From IMG/VR virus record IMGVR_UViG_3300031841_003468, positions 1-64,000 of that record: DNA of 64,000 bases. One strand, 5' to 3'. This document shows positions 9,539 to 46,325 of this stretch, one piece after another. Every line of letters begins with the position of its first letter. Within the stretch, counting starts at the first letter, position 1. Source of the stretch: a virus. A program made the position numbers and the translations under genes. The notes under the pieces were generated by a model. That model was not told where the DNA came from. It made no database searches and worked only from the letters and a program-made list of their open reading frames with translations.

Positions 9539-11171
9539 TTCTATATCCCTCCCATTCGTTAATTTGTTTTCGCATCTTAACCATGTATTCAAAAGCTACA
9601 TCGTAGTTGAATATTTTCTTAGCTCGGTTTGTGTCTGGGTCACTGTCTTCAGAGAAGTAGATACCCTGACCATGAGACTCAACATGATTACCATAGTTTA
9701 AGTCACGGCACATACGCTTCCATAAGTATGTACGATCAAGCTCTGGTTGGCCTAGCACTTCGTTAATAAAATAACTAACTGTTTCAGCGATAGGCTGTCC
9801 CTTAGGATAAGTTTCTGGAATTGGTCTACGCTTGTCAATAGGGCAATCCCAAGTTTTAGATCTGTCTAAGATCTCAGTTTCCGTAAAGTACTTTTCCCAC
9901 ATCGCAGCAGTCTTGTCCCAACTGTATCGCTTCAGGGACTTAGATCTCTGTGTAGCTGCGATCAATGCACGTTCGTGCTGTGGCTTAGCTAAGAAGGACT
10001 TGAGTTCTTCCTTGAAGTTCTCATTATCAGGAATAGCTCGATAGCATCCAGTCTCAACTTCTTTATATAGTGTTAGTGGGTTTAGTGGAATAGCTCCCAG
10101 ATTATCTACCACACTTTCCATAGCAGAGTAGTAAGTGGCCATTAGGGGAACTCCACACTGAACAGCCTCAACCTGCGGCATACCAAATCCTTCACTGTTG
10201 GCATACTGTACATAGACATCAAACAGGTTGTATATCTCTGCTAATTCATGGTCTTCAATCTTGTTGTCCATACCAACTAGCTGTGCTTTTGGTTTGCCAC
10301 AAGAACGACAGAAGCGGTGGTTATCCTGATAGAAGCTGGGGAAGATCGCCCCGCAGTCCTTACACTTATAGGTCATCAGTACTTTAGATGACAGACCGTG
10401 CTCATGAATTAACTCAGGAATATCCCACCCAATATCCGGGAAATATGTATGTAAGTAAAGGAAGGTTTTTGTGTCACCAGTTTCATCTAGGTAACGACGG
10501 AAGCCATCCATTAGGTCTGGAAACATCTTACGCTTTTGGTTACGCATCACAGTACCGACGATATTAATATCTGTCTCTAGACCGTACTTGTCCCGTATCT
10601 TTGCTTTGTCCATAGGCTTGTAGCAATCTGCCGCACAGGGAGAAGCTACGTCTTGGAAATTAATGCTATCACCAGCCTGTTCGATCAGTACATCACGGCC
10701 AAACTCTGAGTAGGCGAAGTGAGCATCTGCATTAGCGAAGCAGTCAATCCAAGCAGGATTCTGTGGCTTAGCATCTACAGTAGGCATAATAACCCACTTG
10801 TAGTTGTTTCTAAAAGGAGATCGTTGTTCAAACTCAAGCATCCAAAAGTCACGAATGTCCATTACGAAGTCTGGCTTGAAGTCCAATAGAACACTGTTGA
10901 AAGTATACTCTCCAAACATTAGTGATGGTGAACTATGGTACTTCTCACGTCCAGCAGCATCATCTAAGTTAGGCGTATTTGGGAAAACCCGCCAAGGAGT
11001 AGCATTCATCTTATCAGTGTCTGAAGGCTTAGCATAACAAGCAAGCTCACCAATCTCGAACTTACCAGTAGCGTGAAGCCGACTGAGCACCTGCTTAGTA
11101 TAAACAGAGTATCCAGTTGGCAACCAGTTAGCTTCAGTAACGAATAATATTCGCTTCTTATTTGTTTGCAT
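9516..11171 (-). CDS. GT-B glycosyltransferase with an inserted zinc ribbon
   Basis: A 551-residue enzyme, longer than usual for the family. The start (RILFVTEANWLPTGYSVYTK) and the middle (VQYANSEGFGMPQVEAVQCG then VPLMATYYSAMESVV) are the two GT-B halves. Between them, near residues 265-295, lies a four-cysteine ribbon: YKCKDCGAIF and RFCRSCGKPK. That insert is unusual in glycosyltransferases and may bind nucleic acid, protein or only stabilise the fold. The last 130 residues are an extension without recognisable motifs. Same transcript as the other sugar genes. Confidence 0.8.
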   Translation of the reverse strand: MQTNKKRILFVTEANWLPTGYSVYTKQVLSRLHATGKFEIGELACYAKPSDTDKMNATPWRVFPNTPNLDDAAGREKYHSSPSLMFGEYTFNSVLLDFKPDFVMDIRDFWMLEFEQRSPFRNNYKWVIMPTVDAKPQNPAWIDCFANADAHFAYSEFGRDVLIEQAGDSINFQDVASPCAADCYKPMDKAKIRDKYGLETDINIVGTVMRNQKRKMFPDLMDGFRRYLDETGDTKTFLYLHTYFPDIGWDIPELIHEHGLSSKVLMTYKCKDCGAIFPSFYQDNHRFCRSCGKPKAQLVGMDNKIEDHELAEIYNLFDVYVQYANSEGFGMPQVEAVQCGVPLMATYYSAMESVVDNLGAIPLNPLTLYKEVETGCYRAIPDNENFKEELKSFLAKPQHERALIAATQRSKSLKRYSWDKTAAMWEKYFTETEILDRSKTWDCPIDKRRPIPETYPKGQPIAETVSYFINEVLGQPELDRTYLWKRMCRDLNYGNHVESHGQGIYFSEDSDPDTNRAKKIFNYDVAFEYMVKMRKQINEWEGYRIESLISK

Positions 11172-11649
11172 TTCTTATCTTCCTGATGATTTCTAAAAAG
11201 TGAGTCTTAAACTCATTCTTTGTAAGACCAAGAGTACTACAGATCTCTGATCTCGTGTAACCTTCAGCACGCATTGTTATTAGCACGGTTTCCGTATTGG
11301 TGAGGCTAGGCATAGCTTCTGCAATTTTATCTACTGCCTGAGCATCTTTGTCCTCTAGGGAATTAGCCAAATAAAAATCATCGACTGAATAGGTTTTCTT
11401 ATGTTTGTTCTCTTTACCAAGCTGGCGAAGGATTTCATTTCTGATACAGTAGAATGCAAAGACTGAAAATTTAGCCTTGCGATCTTCACTGTAGTTTCTA
11501 ATTGCTTTTAGAAGACCTATACTTCCAATTTGTATGTAGTCTTCTAGCTCCATGCACTGATCGTACTTGTAGTACTTCTGTGCTTGCGATACAACTAAGC
11601 CAAAATGCTTCTGTACCTGAGCTTCTTCATCTATATTGCGGTTAATCAT
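11158..11649 (-). CDS. Phage sigma-70-family sigma factor
   Basis: A 163-residue sigma factor, short because it has only regions 2 and 4. Region 2 spans residues 15-75: YIQIGSIGLLKAIRNYSEDR, then FSVFAFYCIRNEILRQL, the helices that bind the core polymerase and the -10 element. Region 4 near residues 110-155 (RAEGYTRSEICSTLGLTKNE) is a helix-turn-helix for a -35 contact. It should redirect host RNA polymerase to a phage gene class. It overlaps the downstream glycosyltransferase by 14 bp and follows the SSB gene. A second sigma-like gene is at 34387-34896. Confidence 0.85.
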   Translation of the reverse strand: MINRNIDEEAQVQKHFGLVVSQAQKYYKYDQCMELEDYIQIGSIGLLKAIRNYSEDRKAKFSVFAFYCIRNEILRQLGKENKHKKTYSVDDFYLANSLEDKDAQAVDKIAEAMPSLTNTETVLITMRAEGYTRSEICSTLGLTKNEFKTHFLEIIRKIRNANK

Positions 11650-31719: not shown

Positions 31720-31754
31720 CTTATAATTCCTTCCTTCAATACAGCACGGTTTGT

Positions 31755-31806
31755 GCCGGTAGCGTGTTTAAACTAGCCGTATATCATAGTACGCTACCGG
31801 CGGCAA
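31755..31806 (-). promoter_or_regulatory. nrdJ promoter overlapped by a 10 bp inverted repeat
   Basis: On the minus strand TTGCCG (31806-31801), 17 bp spacer, TATACG (31783-31778). A perfect inverted repeat, GCCGGTAGCG (31755-31764) and CGCTACCGGC (31792-31801), has one arm in the spacer and one just after the expected start site. It looks like an operator. An 8 bp direct repeat TTGTGCCG is at 31751 and 31821. Confidence 0.55.
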
Positions 31807-31867
31807 AAGCCCCACAGAGGTTGTGCCGTTTTTAGCTGCCAAACCCTAATATTGGCCGAGCTATTCT

Positions 31868-32347
31868 TTAAGTCTCTGTGTCTATTTTACTATACACATC
31901 TTTTAAGAACTTTGGCTCTGTTTTTATAGAGTTTACAACTAAACCATTATTTATTAAAAAATCAAATACTTCTTGGTCGCTAGTATTCCAAGAATTTACA
32001 TATGCTTCTTCCTCAATATACCACTCCCTTACGTGGGCTTGCCATAATAGTTTAGCACAGGTCGCACAAGGCATAGCAGTAACATAAGCTTTTTTAGGTT
32101 CATTAGTTTGTACTAGCATGTTACTTAGGGCATTTTGCTCTGAGTGTACTATATAGGGGTATTTCTTTGGTCTGACGGTCGGAAGATGTGAGTCGTCAGT
32201 ACCAGCAGGGAAGCCATTATAACCAATACCAACAACATTATTGTCCATATTGGCTATAACGCACCCGACTTTAGTCTGGGAGTCATGGCTACGAATAGCT
32301 ACATAATGTGCCATTCCCATGAAATATTGATCCCAGCTTGGCCTCAT
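31868..32347 (-). CDS. dCMP deaminase
   Basis: A 159-residue zinc deaminase. HSEQNALSNM supplies the catalytic Glu and the first zinc His, and TAMPCATCAKLLW supplies the two zinc cysteines. It converts dCMP to dUMP for dTMP synthesis, which pairs with the dUTPase. Overlaps the following gene's stop by one base at 32347. Confidence 0.9.
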   Translation of the reverse strand: MRPSWDQYFMGMAHYVAIRSHDSQTKVGCVIANMDNNVVGIGYNGFPAGTDDSHLPTVRPKKYPYIVHSEQNALSNMLVQTNEPKKAYVTAMPCATCAKLLWQAHVREWYIEEEAYVNSWNTSDQEVFDFLINNGLVVNSIKTEPKFLKDVYSKIDTET

Positions 32348-32502
32348 TACGACTTACGCTCCCATAGAAGCTCGCCGTCTTGAGTCTTAAGAGCAACCAA
32401 TCGCTCAAAAGTGAAATCCTCAGTTTCCACAGGTGTGGTGATGGCAATACGACCATCTTCGAGGGTATGTTCCCGTAGTTCGGGAGAATTGTTATCTGAC
32501 AT
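32347..32502 (-). CDS. Small unknown acidic protein
   Basis: A 51-residue frame (starts MSDNNSPELREHTLEDGRIA) with AAGGAGACAG before ATG 32502. It overlaps the deaminase start by one base. No function seen. Confidence 0.6.
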   Translation of the reverse strand: MSDNNSPELREHTLEDGRIAITTPVETEDFTFERLVALKTQDGELLWERKS

Positions 32503-34386: not shown

Positions 34387-34896
34387 TTAAATCTCAATGC
34401 CGTTAATTTCCCTGATTAGTTCAATAGCCTTTGCCACATTTCTGCGTGCTGTCTCACGACTATATCCCTTCTTCTGTCCTATTTCTTCGATAGTCATCTT
34501 ATCTTGAAACTTCATACGAAGGATCGACTTCGATTCTTCGGGCAAAGCATCAATAATAACTTCAAAGTCTTCTGTCTTCTCATTGTAACGCTCGAAAGGT
34601 ATATTAGTGAATTCTTGGTACTTTCGCCGTTTCATAGAGTTGCTAATGTTTAGTCTTAGCGAGTTGTAGAGAAAGGAAGTAAATTTACATCCCTTCGTTG
34701 GATCAAACTTATTTAGACACTCCCAAAGAGTTGTAAGCTTGATAGATTGTATTACATCAGGATCTACTCGTTTACGAAACTTGTAGCAGACGCTATCCAT
34801 GATCTTGCGGTAATCTTTATTTTTCAAAGCTTGGTCAAAGTCCCGTGTCTCTAGATCCTCAATTACCTTGGTTTCCGTCTTCGCTGATTCTGTCAT
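34387..34896 (-). CDS. Second sigma-70-family sigma factor
   Basis: A 169-residue protein. Region 2 spans KLTTLWECLNKFDPTKGCKF then TSFLYNSLRLNISNSMKRRK (core-binding and -10 helices). Region 4 is the HTH around MTIEEIGQKKGYSRETARRN. There is no region 3.2 or 1.1, as in other small phage sigma factors. It could direct a later or middle class of phage promoters. Overlaps the 34859 gene by 38 bp. Confidence 0.82.
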   Translation of the reverse strand: MTESAKTETKVIEDLETRDFDQALKNKDYRKIMDSVCYKFRKRVDPDVIQSIKLTTLWECLNKFDPTKGCKFTSFLYNSLRLNISNSMKRRKYQEFTNIPFERYNEKTEDFEVIIDALPEESKSILRMKFQDKMTIEEIGQKKGYSRETARRNVAKAIELIREINGIEI

Positions 34897-36550: not shown

Positions 36551-36565
36551 ATATATGTCTCCAAT

Positions 36566-36616
36566 AAAAAACGGGTCATCTAGTAATATTATACCAAATG
36601 ACCCGCTAAAAAACAA
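36566..36616 (-). promoter_or_regulatory. Terminator hairpin containing a sigma-70 -10 box
   Basis: CGGGTCAT (36572-36579) and ATGACCCG (36598-36605) form a stem, followed on the minus strand by a run of T, so this is a terminator for the 36641 gene. Its loop contains TATAAT (36593-36588), with TTGTTT 17 bp upstream at 36616-36611, so a promoter for the 36314 gene is nested in the terminator. Confidence 0.55.
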
Positions 36617-36640
36617 CATCGTTGTTGAATTTTCTTTAGA

Positions 36641-36817
36641 TTATTCAGTAGCTCTTAGTGAGTCACCGACAATCCAAGACGCAGCTAGCAATACAACTGA
36701 ATTAACAGTTTCTGCCTCGAAGCCTAGACCTAAGTGTTCTGAGACTGCGACTGCAACACCAGCGATGGCGATCCAGAATCTGCGTGAAGTGGTTAGGGAT
36801 TTAATCTTGTCAATCAT
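36641..36817 (-). CDS. Small single-pass membrane protein
   Basis: 58 residues from ATG 36817 (GGAG upstream). Amphipathic and hydrophobic segments (FWIAIAGVAVAVSEHLGLGF; VVLLAASWIVG) are consistent with a holin or inner-membrane peptide, but this is only a composition argument. The upstream TTG at 36829 lacks a good site. Confidence 0.5.
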   Translation of the reverse strand: MIDKIKSLTTSRRFWIAIAGVAVAVSEHLGLGFEAETVNSVVLLAASWIVGDSLRATE

Positions 36818-36868
36818 AACATTCTCCAAAAAAAGGGTTAGTTAAGTTTTAAGAAGTGTGTTTTCCTA

Positions 36869-38210: not shown

Positions 38211-39528
38211 TTAATGTGTCCTTATGTACATAATAGTGTTCAAACGTCACTGTTGTATACGGGTTCTCAACTTTAATATAATTGTTTTCTACTAGCAGGT
38301 CATGAAGTTTCTGTGGTGCATACTCGATACTGATTGCTCCAAAGGTGTACTTGTCAAACGGGAAGTTTCTAAGTGCCTCATACTCTGCTCCTTCAATATC
38401 CATAGATAGGTACTCTATGAACTCAGGTGCATCTGCGTCCTTTAATATACTTTCTAATGTTCTAACTTCAAGCAGCTCTGTACTTACTGGATTAACATTA
38501 TGTCTTTCTAGCTTTTCTTCTAATACTTTAGTTCCAAACTTGTGCATCTCTGGAAACACACTAAAAGCTTTCTTATCACAATTAAGAAAATCCATCTGTT
38601 TGTTTTCGGCACCAACGCCAACATTATACCCCTTGCATCTTGGGGTAGTCAATGGAATGTTTCTTGCATCAACTCTTATGCCACTCCATTTGTAGTAGCT
38701 TTCTAATACCCATACACTACTCTTGGCCTTGATGTCGAACGCACCTAGATCAACAAAGTAGCCGTCTGTTTTGTGATTATATATATCTTCTACTACCCAC
38801 TTATCATTCCAAGTCTCGAAGTTCTGATATCTTTCATTTCCTATTTCATCGTACTGATATATGTTGGGTATGAGAAATCTCTTAGGTTTTTTATTAAACT
38901 TATTGGCTGGAGAAAGCCTCCATATCCAGTCATCATTATATAAACGAATGTTGAATTTAGCACATATATTTTTGAAGTTCTCTACTGGATTCTCAAAGAA
39001 ATCTTCATAGCAAAGGACATAAGTGTTCGTTTCTTCTGCTAGCTTAAGATATTTATCTAAGTAGTTTCTTAATTCATTATACCGATCCTTGATGAAGTCG
39101 GGTGGAATTTCATCTCTTACCATGTCGAAAAAGTCGTCTGGTTTTTCTTGTTGATCAGGAGCCCAATAGTCAATACCAGTTCTATCAAAGTAATTAGCTG
39201 AGATCCAGTTTGACCATGCCACATCTAATGTGTTACGCCTATAAATAAATATATTATCTGAGTTTCTAAACAAGTATTCATTGTGCTCTTCTGATAGCTG
39301 ATATCTTAATGTTTTCAGGCCATCATACCCCTCCTTGTTCAACAGCATATTAACTATTGAAACATCCTGCTCTTTGCACCTGCCCTTCCATTTACCCTCA
39401 GATATCTTTGCAAATGAAGCATCTGGATTGTAGGGTTCATATGCAAGCTTAAGTCCACCAGACTCTTTGAGTGCCATTATTATAGAAGTTGATCCGCACC
39501 TTGGCTGTAGGCCAAATATGTTTAGCAT
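38200..39528 (-). CDS. Fusion of a sulfotransferase-like and an FkbM-type methyltransferase domain
   Basis: A 442-residue two-domain protein. Residues 1-200 start LNIFGLQPRCGSTSIIMALK (P-loop-like PAPS site: QPRCGST), with NIFIYRRNTLDVAWSNW matching the sulfotransferase 3'-PB-type motif. From about residue 250 (GYFVDLGAFDIKAKSSVWVL) to the end (MDIEGAEYEALRNFPFDKY) it is an FkbM methyltransferase. It may transfer sulfate and methyl groups to the same sugar. The fusion is unusual and reads cleanly through one frame. Confidence 0.75.
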   Translation of the reverse strand: MLNIFGLQPRCGSTSIIMALKESGGLKLAYEPYNPDASFAKISEGKWKGRCKEQDVSIVNMLLNKEGYDGLKTLRYQLSEEHNEYLFRNSDNIFIYRRNTLDVAWSNWISANYFDRTGIDYWAPDQQEKPDDFFDMVRDEIPPDFIKDRYNELRNYLDKYLKLAEETNTYVLCYEDFFENPVENFKNICAKFNIRLYNDDWIWRLSPANKFNKKPKRFLIPNIYQYDEIGNERYQNFETWNDKWVVEDIYNHKTDGYFVDLGAFDIKAKSSVWVLESYYKWSGIRVDARNIPLTTPRCKGYNVGVGAENKQMDFLNCDKKAFSVFPEMHKFGTKVLEEKLERHNVNPVSTELLEVRTLESILKDADAPEFIEYLSMDIEGAEYEALRNFPFDKYTFGAISIEYAPQKLHDLLVENNYIKVENPYTTVTFEHYYVHKDTLNEA

Positions 39529-45557: not shown

Positions 45558-45585
45558 ATTATACATAGTTATCGGCATAAGTCAA
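45558..45585 (-). promoter_or_regulatory. Sigma-70 promoter of the rIIA/rIIB operon
   Basis: TTGACT (45585-45580), 16 bp spacer, TATAAT (45563-45558) on the minus strand, 47 bp upstream of the rIIA start. Confidence 0.8.
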
Positions 45586-45639
45586 ACAGAAATTTAGAAA
45601 AATTCAGAAAATTTATGTGCAATTTCCTGCATTCGTTTA

Positions 45640-45835
45640 CATTATATGGGTGAAGACGAGGTGACAGCGACACGATGATCGAAAGATCACATACCTCATT
45701 CTTCACATTTCTCAACTCCCTTAATGTGTGTCCGATGAGGTACGGCATATTTACTTTTTATTACCTCATGAGAGTTTCGGCTCTCACGAACTCCCCCTTG
45801 GAGGCAGTAGATACCCCTCTGCTGCCTCCTTTTTT
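45640..45835 (+). ncRNA. Plus-strand structured RNA ending in an intrinsic terminator
   Basis: On the plus strand: a nested stem (GTGAAG 45650-45655 with CTTCAC 45701-45706; GAGGT 45658-45662 with ACCTC 45693-45697; TGATC-GAAA-GATCA 45676-45689, a GNRA tetraloop), then ATGAGGTA (45735-45742) with TACCTCAT (45762-45769), a GAGAG/CTCTC hairpin (45770-45785), and a terminator stem (GGAGGCAG 45800-45807 with CTGCCTCC 45822-45829) followed by six T. The direction fits a plus-strand transcript of about 190 nt from an unlocated start near 45640. No known family recognised. The 45675 frame on this strand lacks a ribosome site. Confidence 0.6.
45798..45835 (+). terminator. Intrinsic terminator of the plus-strand RNA
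   Basis: GGAGGCAG pairs with CTGCCTCC around a 14-base loop, then TTTTTT. The T run is only on the plus strand, so the element terminates plus-strand transcripts. The following plus-strand ORF begins 18 bases later. Confidence 0.8.
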
Positions 45836-45852
45836 ATTTGTGAGGAAAACAA

Positions 45853-45987
45853 ATGAGGATGCGAAAGATCCATAAACGTGAGGTTTACAAAAAGTATGCC
45901 CAGTCAAATGTGACACAGCCAAAGAAGACAAGTCTTCCAAATGTAATTAGAACTCGGATTCAGAAAGTTAAAGATATGCTACTCTAG
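45853..45987 (+). CDS. Small basic protein, only convincing plus-strand gene
   Basis: 44 residues: MRMRKIHKREVYKKYAQSNV, then TQPKKTSLPNVIRTRIQKVK and DMLL. GAGGAAAAC precedes the ATG. It is strongly basic and probably binds nucleic acid or protein. Its stop (TAG in CTCTAG) overlaps the stop of the convergent 45984 gene, as CTAG reads as a stop on both strands. It lies after the terminator, so read-through or a separate promoter would be needed. No family recognised. Confidence 0.55.
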   Translation: MRMRKIHKREVYKKYAQSNVTQPKKTSLPNVIRTRIQKVKDMLL

Positions 45988-46325
45988 ATAGTATTCTTCT
46001 TTATGTCTCGTTCCTGAAGTTCCATTAACATATCAAATAAAGCTTTACCATTCTGGTTATTGATTATAATCTTTTCTTTATGGTCTTTAAGTGCTTCATC
46101 TATTAGCCGATCATTCTCGATTAGCTCTTCGACTGCATTCAACATATCATTATTATTATTGTTAGCAAAGTACATATTGCCAACACATAGACCTAGATTA
46201 GTTACAGTAGCAAGAAAGAGTAGCTTAATACCAAGAGGGTATCTTACTCTGTGTTTGATTTTTGCTCTGCCCTTTGATTCAGGTTCAGATGGTGCGGTTG
46301 GACTAAATCCTTGAATAGTTGCCAT
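45984..46325 (-). CDS. Membrane protein with a coiled coil
   Basis: A 113-residue protein: cytoplasmic basic start (GRAKIKHRVRYPLGIK), one membrane helix (LLFLATVTNLGLCVGNMYF) and a charged, probably helical tail (AVEELIENDRLIDEALKDHK). This is an inner-membrane-helix-plus-coil layout as in holin or spanin-like proteins, but the identity is not established. AGGAG precedes the ATG. Confidence 0.55.
   Translation of the reverse strand: MATIQGFSPTAPSEPESKGRAKIKHRVRYPLGIKLLFLATVTNLGLCVGNMYFANNNNNDMLNAVEELIENDRLIDEALKDHKEKIIINNQNGKALFDMLMELQERDIKKNTI

Follow-up and report, generated by a model that had tools for sequence, protein, structure and literature searches.

A predicted plus-strand RNA unit with an intrinsic terminator upstream of rIIA in an uncultured phage genome

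Phage small RNAs with intrinsic terminators include lambda OOP, VpdS of VP882 and the misc RNAs of phiR1-37 (PMC12197685), and promoters that depend on phage sigma factors are known from phiEco32 (gp36) and 7-11 (gp47), the 7-11 motif being GTAAtg-16-aCTA (PMC8948821). We compared these systems with an island at 45640-45987 of a window that comprises the first 64 kb (64,000 nucleotides) of a 153,711-bp virus record. A sequence-only reading had proposed that the plus strand of this island carries nested stems, two further hairpins, a terminator and an ORF with a ribosome site, and all of these elements were found. The proposal of a plus-strand RNA unit is supported by a candidate promoter, by a terminator that is rare on this strand and by a second unit of like layout at 69254-70550. 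Taking together the readings as a small RNA and as a leader, both discussed below, we consider it likely that the island is transcribed as a genuine plus-strand unit. Our preferred prediction, to which we give an even chance, is that it yields a terminated phage small RNA specific to its lineage.

Genes of this record read on the minus strand to ~87 kb, after which structural genes read plus, and they include rIIA, rIIB, DNA polymerase, ribonucleotide reductase, terminase, five tRNAs and a tmRNA. The terminase matched ~600 IMG/VR contigs, with 65-70% identity among the 80 matches listed, as against only ~26% identity to INPHARED phages; the phage group is large, environmental and without a close INPHARED relative. 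The tmRNA gene is complete (51315-50964, minus strand; Rfam 84.9 bits) and surrounded by tRNAs, its tag being read by eye as AEKNFSLAA. Near-identical non-coding blocks with promoters occupy the two ends of the record (819-1440 and 153388-153640) and may be paralogous ends or a terminal duplication with mismatches. Elsewhere on the minus strand, the gap upstream of ribonucleotide reductase contains a long hairpin without a T-run (31720-31870; GCCGGTAGCGT/ACGCTACCGGC), near which the fold of 32176-32373 is among the genome's most stable. The non-coding, structured stretch at 72760-72900 (minus; ~52% GC), which has an intrinsic terminator at its end (72767-72796), is a candidate minus-strand RNA.

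The terminator of the island (45800-45835, plus) is canonical, as had been proposed, with a 12-bp stem (45800-45829) followed by six T, the U6 tract of the RNA. A scan of all 153.7 kb identified eight strong intergenic terminators. Within the first 87 kb, where genes read minus, just two have the plus direction, at 45800-45829 and 69795-69825. Both lie downstream of motifs of a second promoter class described below, a point in favour of a small RNA, and the predicted island RNA has a Rho-independent terminator at its 3′ end, as intrinsically terminated phage small RNAs do.

Upstream of the terminator the plus strand can form three hairpins. Hairpin 1 (45650-45706; -18.9 kcal/mol) consists of nested helices P1 (45650-45656/45700-45706), P2 (45658-45663/45692-45697) and P3 (45676-45680/45685-45689), the last of which closes a GAAA tetraloop, and its stability was reached by one of 500 dinucleotide shuffles. 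It is followed by the CU-rich segment AUUUCUCAACUCCCUUAAUGUGUGUCCG (45707-45734), which is unpaired in the local fold and is a possible pairing region, then by hairpin 2 (45735-45742/45762-45769; GAGGUA/UACCUC with a 19-nt loop) and hairpin 3 (45770-45785; UUCG tetraloop), which jointly are matched by six of 500 shuffles. The nested stems with a GNRA loop drawn in the earlier reading are present, but the drawn structure has a near-equal alternative. GAGGU and ACCUC, each present in two copies, allow either local (-57.5 kcal/mol) or crosswise (-62.4 kcal/mol) pairing, and hairpins 1 and 2 compete in that the arms of hairpin 2 can pair instead with those of hairpin 1; the local pairing is the fold favoured during chain growth. 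The fold of the whole 198 nt has a z of -4.7 on the plus strand, falling to only about -2 without the terminator. Its stability is ordinary genome-wide (rank ~44 of 3104), and the minus strand folds about equally well (z -3.7). Folding energy does not choose the strand, and the assignment to plus is made because the GAAA loop, the UUCG loop and the T-run occur on that strand only. The modest energy excess without the terminator, and the many features inspected, might suggest that structure, motif and ORF simply coincide in a non-functional gap. We regard this as extremely improbable given the rarity of the terminator on the plus strand, the two special tetraloops, the promoter motif and the matching second unit.

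The placement of the island back to back with the rIIA promoter was borne out, an early promoter TTGACT-N16-TATAAT with internal GCCGATAA being located at 45585-45558 on the minus strand. Promoters of this early type (TTGAC-N16-TATAAT) number 42 on the minus strand of 0-87 kb and none on the plus strand; none was found on the plus strand ahead of the island, where the late motif TTGTGTAT was also looked for and is absent. What precedes the island RNA is a candidate class-2 promoter, TGTGCAAT-N16-CATTAT (45616-45645, plus), a weak match to TGnGCnA-N17-TATAAT, with its predicted start at ~45650-45653, the foot of hairpin 1. The class-2 motif has seven exact copies in the genome, several of which stand 50-90 nt ahead of minus genes, and TGnGC[AT]A occurs seven times at a spacing of 17 versus once at any other spacing from 12 to 22. 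Scored with a matrix built without the island copy, the island motif reaches 9.9 bits and ranks 29 genome-wide. Matches this good are expected ~3.7 times per shuffled strand and hence ~0.001-0.004 times in the 60-150 nt immediately upstream of the island RNA, figures in which some selection bias remains because the motif was first spotted by comparing the island with 69254. Upstream of the island, TTATGTGCAATTT has one other exact copy, at 69251 (plus), upstream of the second unit, and the island promoter shares CATTCGTTTA ahead of its -10 with the copy at 38964 (minus). Among the relatives' loci compared the class-2 motif is not enriched, and the island -10, only CATTAT and thus a weak match, counts against a small RNA, as do the modest fold stability without the terminator and the lack of a homologue in the searches described below.

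The genome encodes three sigma-70-like proteins (11158-11649 and 34387-34896, minus; 86933-87520, plus), one of which could read the class-2 motif. The sequence shows the structure, the terminator, its rarity on this strand and the motif match, and we infer transcription of the island, its timing, its dependence on such a factor and action in trans. The gene at 86933-87520 directly precedes the late genes, before which the late-promoter-like motif TTGTGTATTTTAT or close variants stand at 92902, 95089, 98360, 115548 and 148605 (plus).

A separate observation concerns the early sigma-70 promoters, which are overlapped by an element in two parts, TAAA(GTT)-N-GCCGATA, also seen in relatives L090-L170; examples, all on the minus strand, are at 45585, 71245, 74501, 75644, 77551, 81106 and 82999. 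GCCGA/TCGGC occurs in 15 of the 42 early promoters versus 0.56 expected. Of the 15 promoters with CCGAT, 11 have TAAA at a distance of exactly 21-22 bp on its upstream side, and the TTGAC-to-CCGAT offset in the same 15 varies from 10 to 14 bp. Among the relatives, 34 distinct ones also carry a CGATA element in their rIIA promoter. The TAAA(GTT) and GCCGATA halves are those of the sigma-28 (FliA) consensus, with a spacing 1-2 bp longer. Dual promoters of sigma-70/sigma-28-like type, or an operator, are possible interpretations.

Downstream of the island terminator, a GAGG ribosome-binding site (45842-45845, plus) stands 7 nt ahead of the ATG of a predicted basic ORF of 44 residues, ORF44 (45853-45987, plus). 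As the earlier reading had stated, ORF44 converges with a minus-strand gene, the two stops overlapping in CTAG; this 113-aa gene (45984-46325, minus) is not part of the island unit. The codon score of ORF44, the putative accessory peptide of the earlier reading, is intermediate, with 24% of real short genes scoring lower and 15% of spurious ORFs as high. ORF44 has no homologue in the relatives' records and no Pfam or PHROG match.

The second plus-strand unit of the early half (69254-70605, equal to 5254-6605 of L002) begins with an exact class-2 promoter copy at 69254. This is followed by a ~500-nt AT-rich leader, the terminator at 69795-69825, a matrixin (M10) metalloprotease gene (69864-70550, plus; Pfam E 4.8e-29) and a terminator-like hairpin, and from the candidate promoters seen the gene is reachable only through the terminator. 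The two units share the layout promoter-leader-terminator-RBS-ORF, which favours a leader of ORF44 over a free small RNA. The RNA and terminator would then act in cis, attenuating ORF44 by read-through or conditional antitermination with the GAGGU/ACCUC pairings as a switch, and the shared element order ahead of a real M10 gene, the two near-equal folds, and the good RBS and abutting stop of ORF44 are all consistent with this. The intermediate codon score of ORF44 and the lack of any Rfam riboswitch or leader match argue against it, as does the lack of a convincing antiterminator. No strong pairing to the terminator 5′ arm was seen in the island sequence, nor a mutually exclusive terminator and antiterminator; it is hairpins 1 and 2 that exchange partners, and not the terminator stem. 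The lack of a visible antiterminator favours a constitutive end at this strong terminator, and with it a free small RNA over a leader; we hold the leader to be possible but doubtful. A broader scheme, in which the early region carries a small set of plus-strand accessory modules (ORF44 at the island, the matrixin protease at 69864-70550), every one of them with a class-2 promoter that may depend on a phage sigma factor, a terminated structured leader and a gene reachable only through the terminator, seems to us rather unlikely. If true, it would amount to conditional termination of accessory genes whose transcription runs counter to that of the early genes. The island also points to a second promoter class and a second plus-strand unit, which makes counter-transcription driven by a phage sigma factor testable.

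Homology searches returned the island RNA only from its own window. Rfam 15 gave no ribozyme, riboswitch or leader match (best E 0.2, far below the cut-offs), blastn against INPHARED at distant settings gave short chance matches only, and exact and gapped patterns of the RNA found nothing in IMG/VR. A covariance model, built from the single sequence, found only itself among 71 sequence sources and 87 relative phage records, and further IMG/VR scans that used the adjacent 171-aa protein, or rIIA by itself, as query yielded no close relatives. A gapped pattern produced two chance matches in GTDB genomes, one of them by eye in an apparent citrate lyase. Matches of 13-23 nt in relatives look on inspection like chance, and what looked in relatives like a plus-strand homologue of 36555-36845 proved to be the opposite strand of a small gene read minus. 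If transcribed, the island RNA would be a new phage RNA without a relative in Rfam or the phage records searched.

We also compared the loci of 70 relatives that carry rIIB, many of the relative records being fragments. In most of these loci the rIIA early promoter takes the form TTGACA-N-CGATA-N-TATAMT, ~45 nt from the start, and its counterpart is conserved upstream of rIIA in ~50 relatives. In ~60 relatives the region upstream of rIIA holds minus-strand ORFs, which start close to rIIA, without an island-like unit, and no terminator facing away from rIIA was found there, except that a few have a short hairpin within the promoter. At the island, the minus strand leaves a 394-nt intergenic gap in a tightly packed genome, a further point in favour of a small RNA. 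Because the relatives' rIIA loci lack the unit and searches with the RNA and ORF44 find only the window, the unit appears to be an insertion or innovation of its own lineage, as judged at the position upstream of rIIA in these often fragmentary records. Absence from this position in every relative compared, the weak -10, and an ORF44 with an intermediate score and no homologue would also be expected if the island were left over from a plus-strand module that the phage acquired, where the terminator merely blocks plus-strand transcription and no working RNA is made. Intact stems, tetraloops and U-tract, with a 5′ hairpin at the predicted start, would be surprising in decaying DNA, and we think such a relic unlikely.

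No minus-strand terminator was found between 45984 and the rIIA promoter, so minus-strand read-through from the 113-aa gene towards rIIA would contain the complement of the island RNA. An antisense regulator of the rIIA unit has precedents in lambda OOP and the phiR1-37 antisense RNAs (PMC12197685), but downstream of the island rIIA is served by a conserved promoter of its own, and the RNA does not overlap the gene, which leaves this reading quite improbable. As a small RNA, the preferred reading, the island would be transcribed by RNA polymerase starting at the class-2 promoter (45616-45645), perhaps redirected by one of the three sigma-like factors of the phage. The predicted product of ~185 nt would run from the foot of hairpin 1 to the terminator end at 45829-45835, capped by the 5′ hairpin and the 3′ terminator hairpin and exposing two CU-rich unpaired stretches, and would most likely act in trans by base pairing. 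When phage mRNA starts were scanned as targets, the CU-rich segments bound none better than shuffled segments did, which counts against this reading.

Among known systems, type III toxin-antitoxin loci (toxI, terminator, toxN) share the order RNA-terminator-ORF, but the island lacks tandem RNA repeats before the terminator, and the 44-aa ORF44, without a Pfam or PHROG match, is not a ToxN-like endoribonuclease. Attenuators and riboswitch leaders resemble it in their structured 5′ RNA, terminator, RBS with ORF and alternative pairings, and differ in that the island has no Rfam aptamer, no clear antiterminator and only a tiny putative ORF. The sigma-dependent promoters of phiEco32 and 7-11 likewise combine a phage sigma factor with a bipartite motif of 16-nt spacing; the motif here is TGTGCWAW-N16-TATAAT, and that one given phage sigma recognises it is our inference. 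The island RNA has no detected sequence or structural homology to OOP, VpdS or the phiR1-37 RNAs and belongs to an uncultured rIIA/rIIB phage, but it resembles these phage small RNAs in being, as predicted, a short terminated RNA read against neighbouring phage genes.
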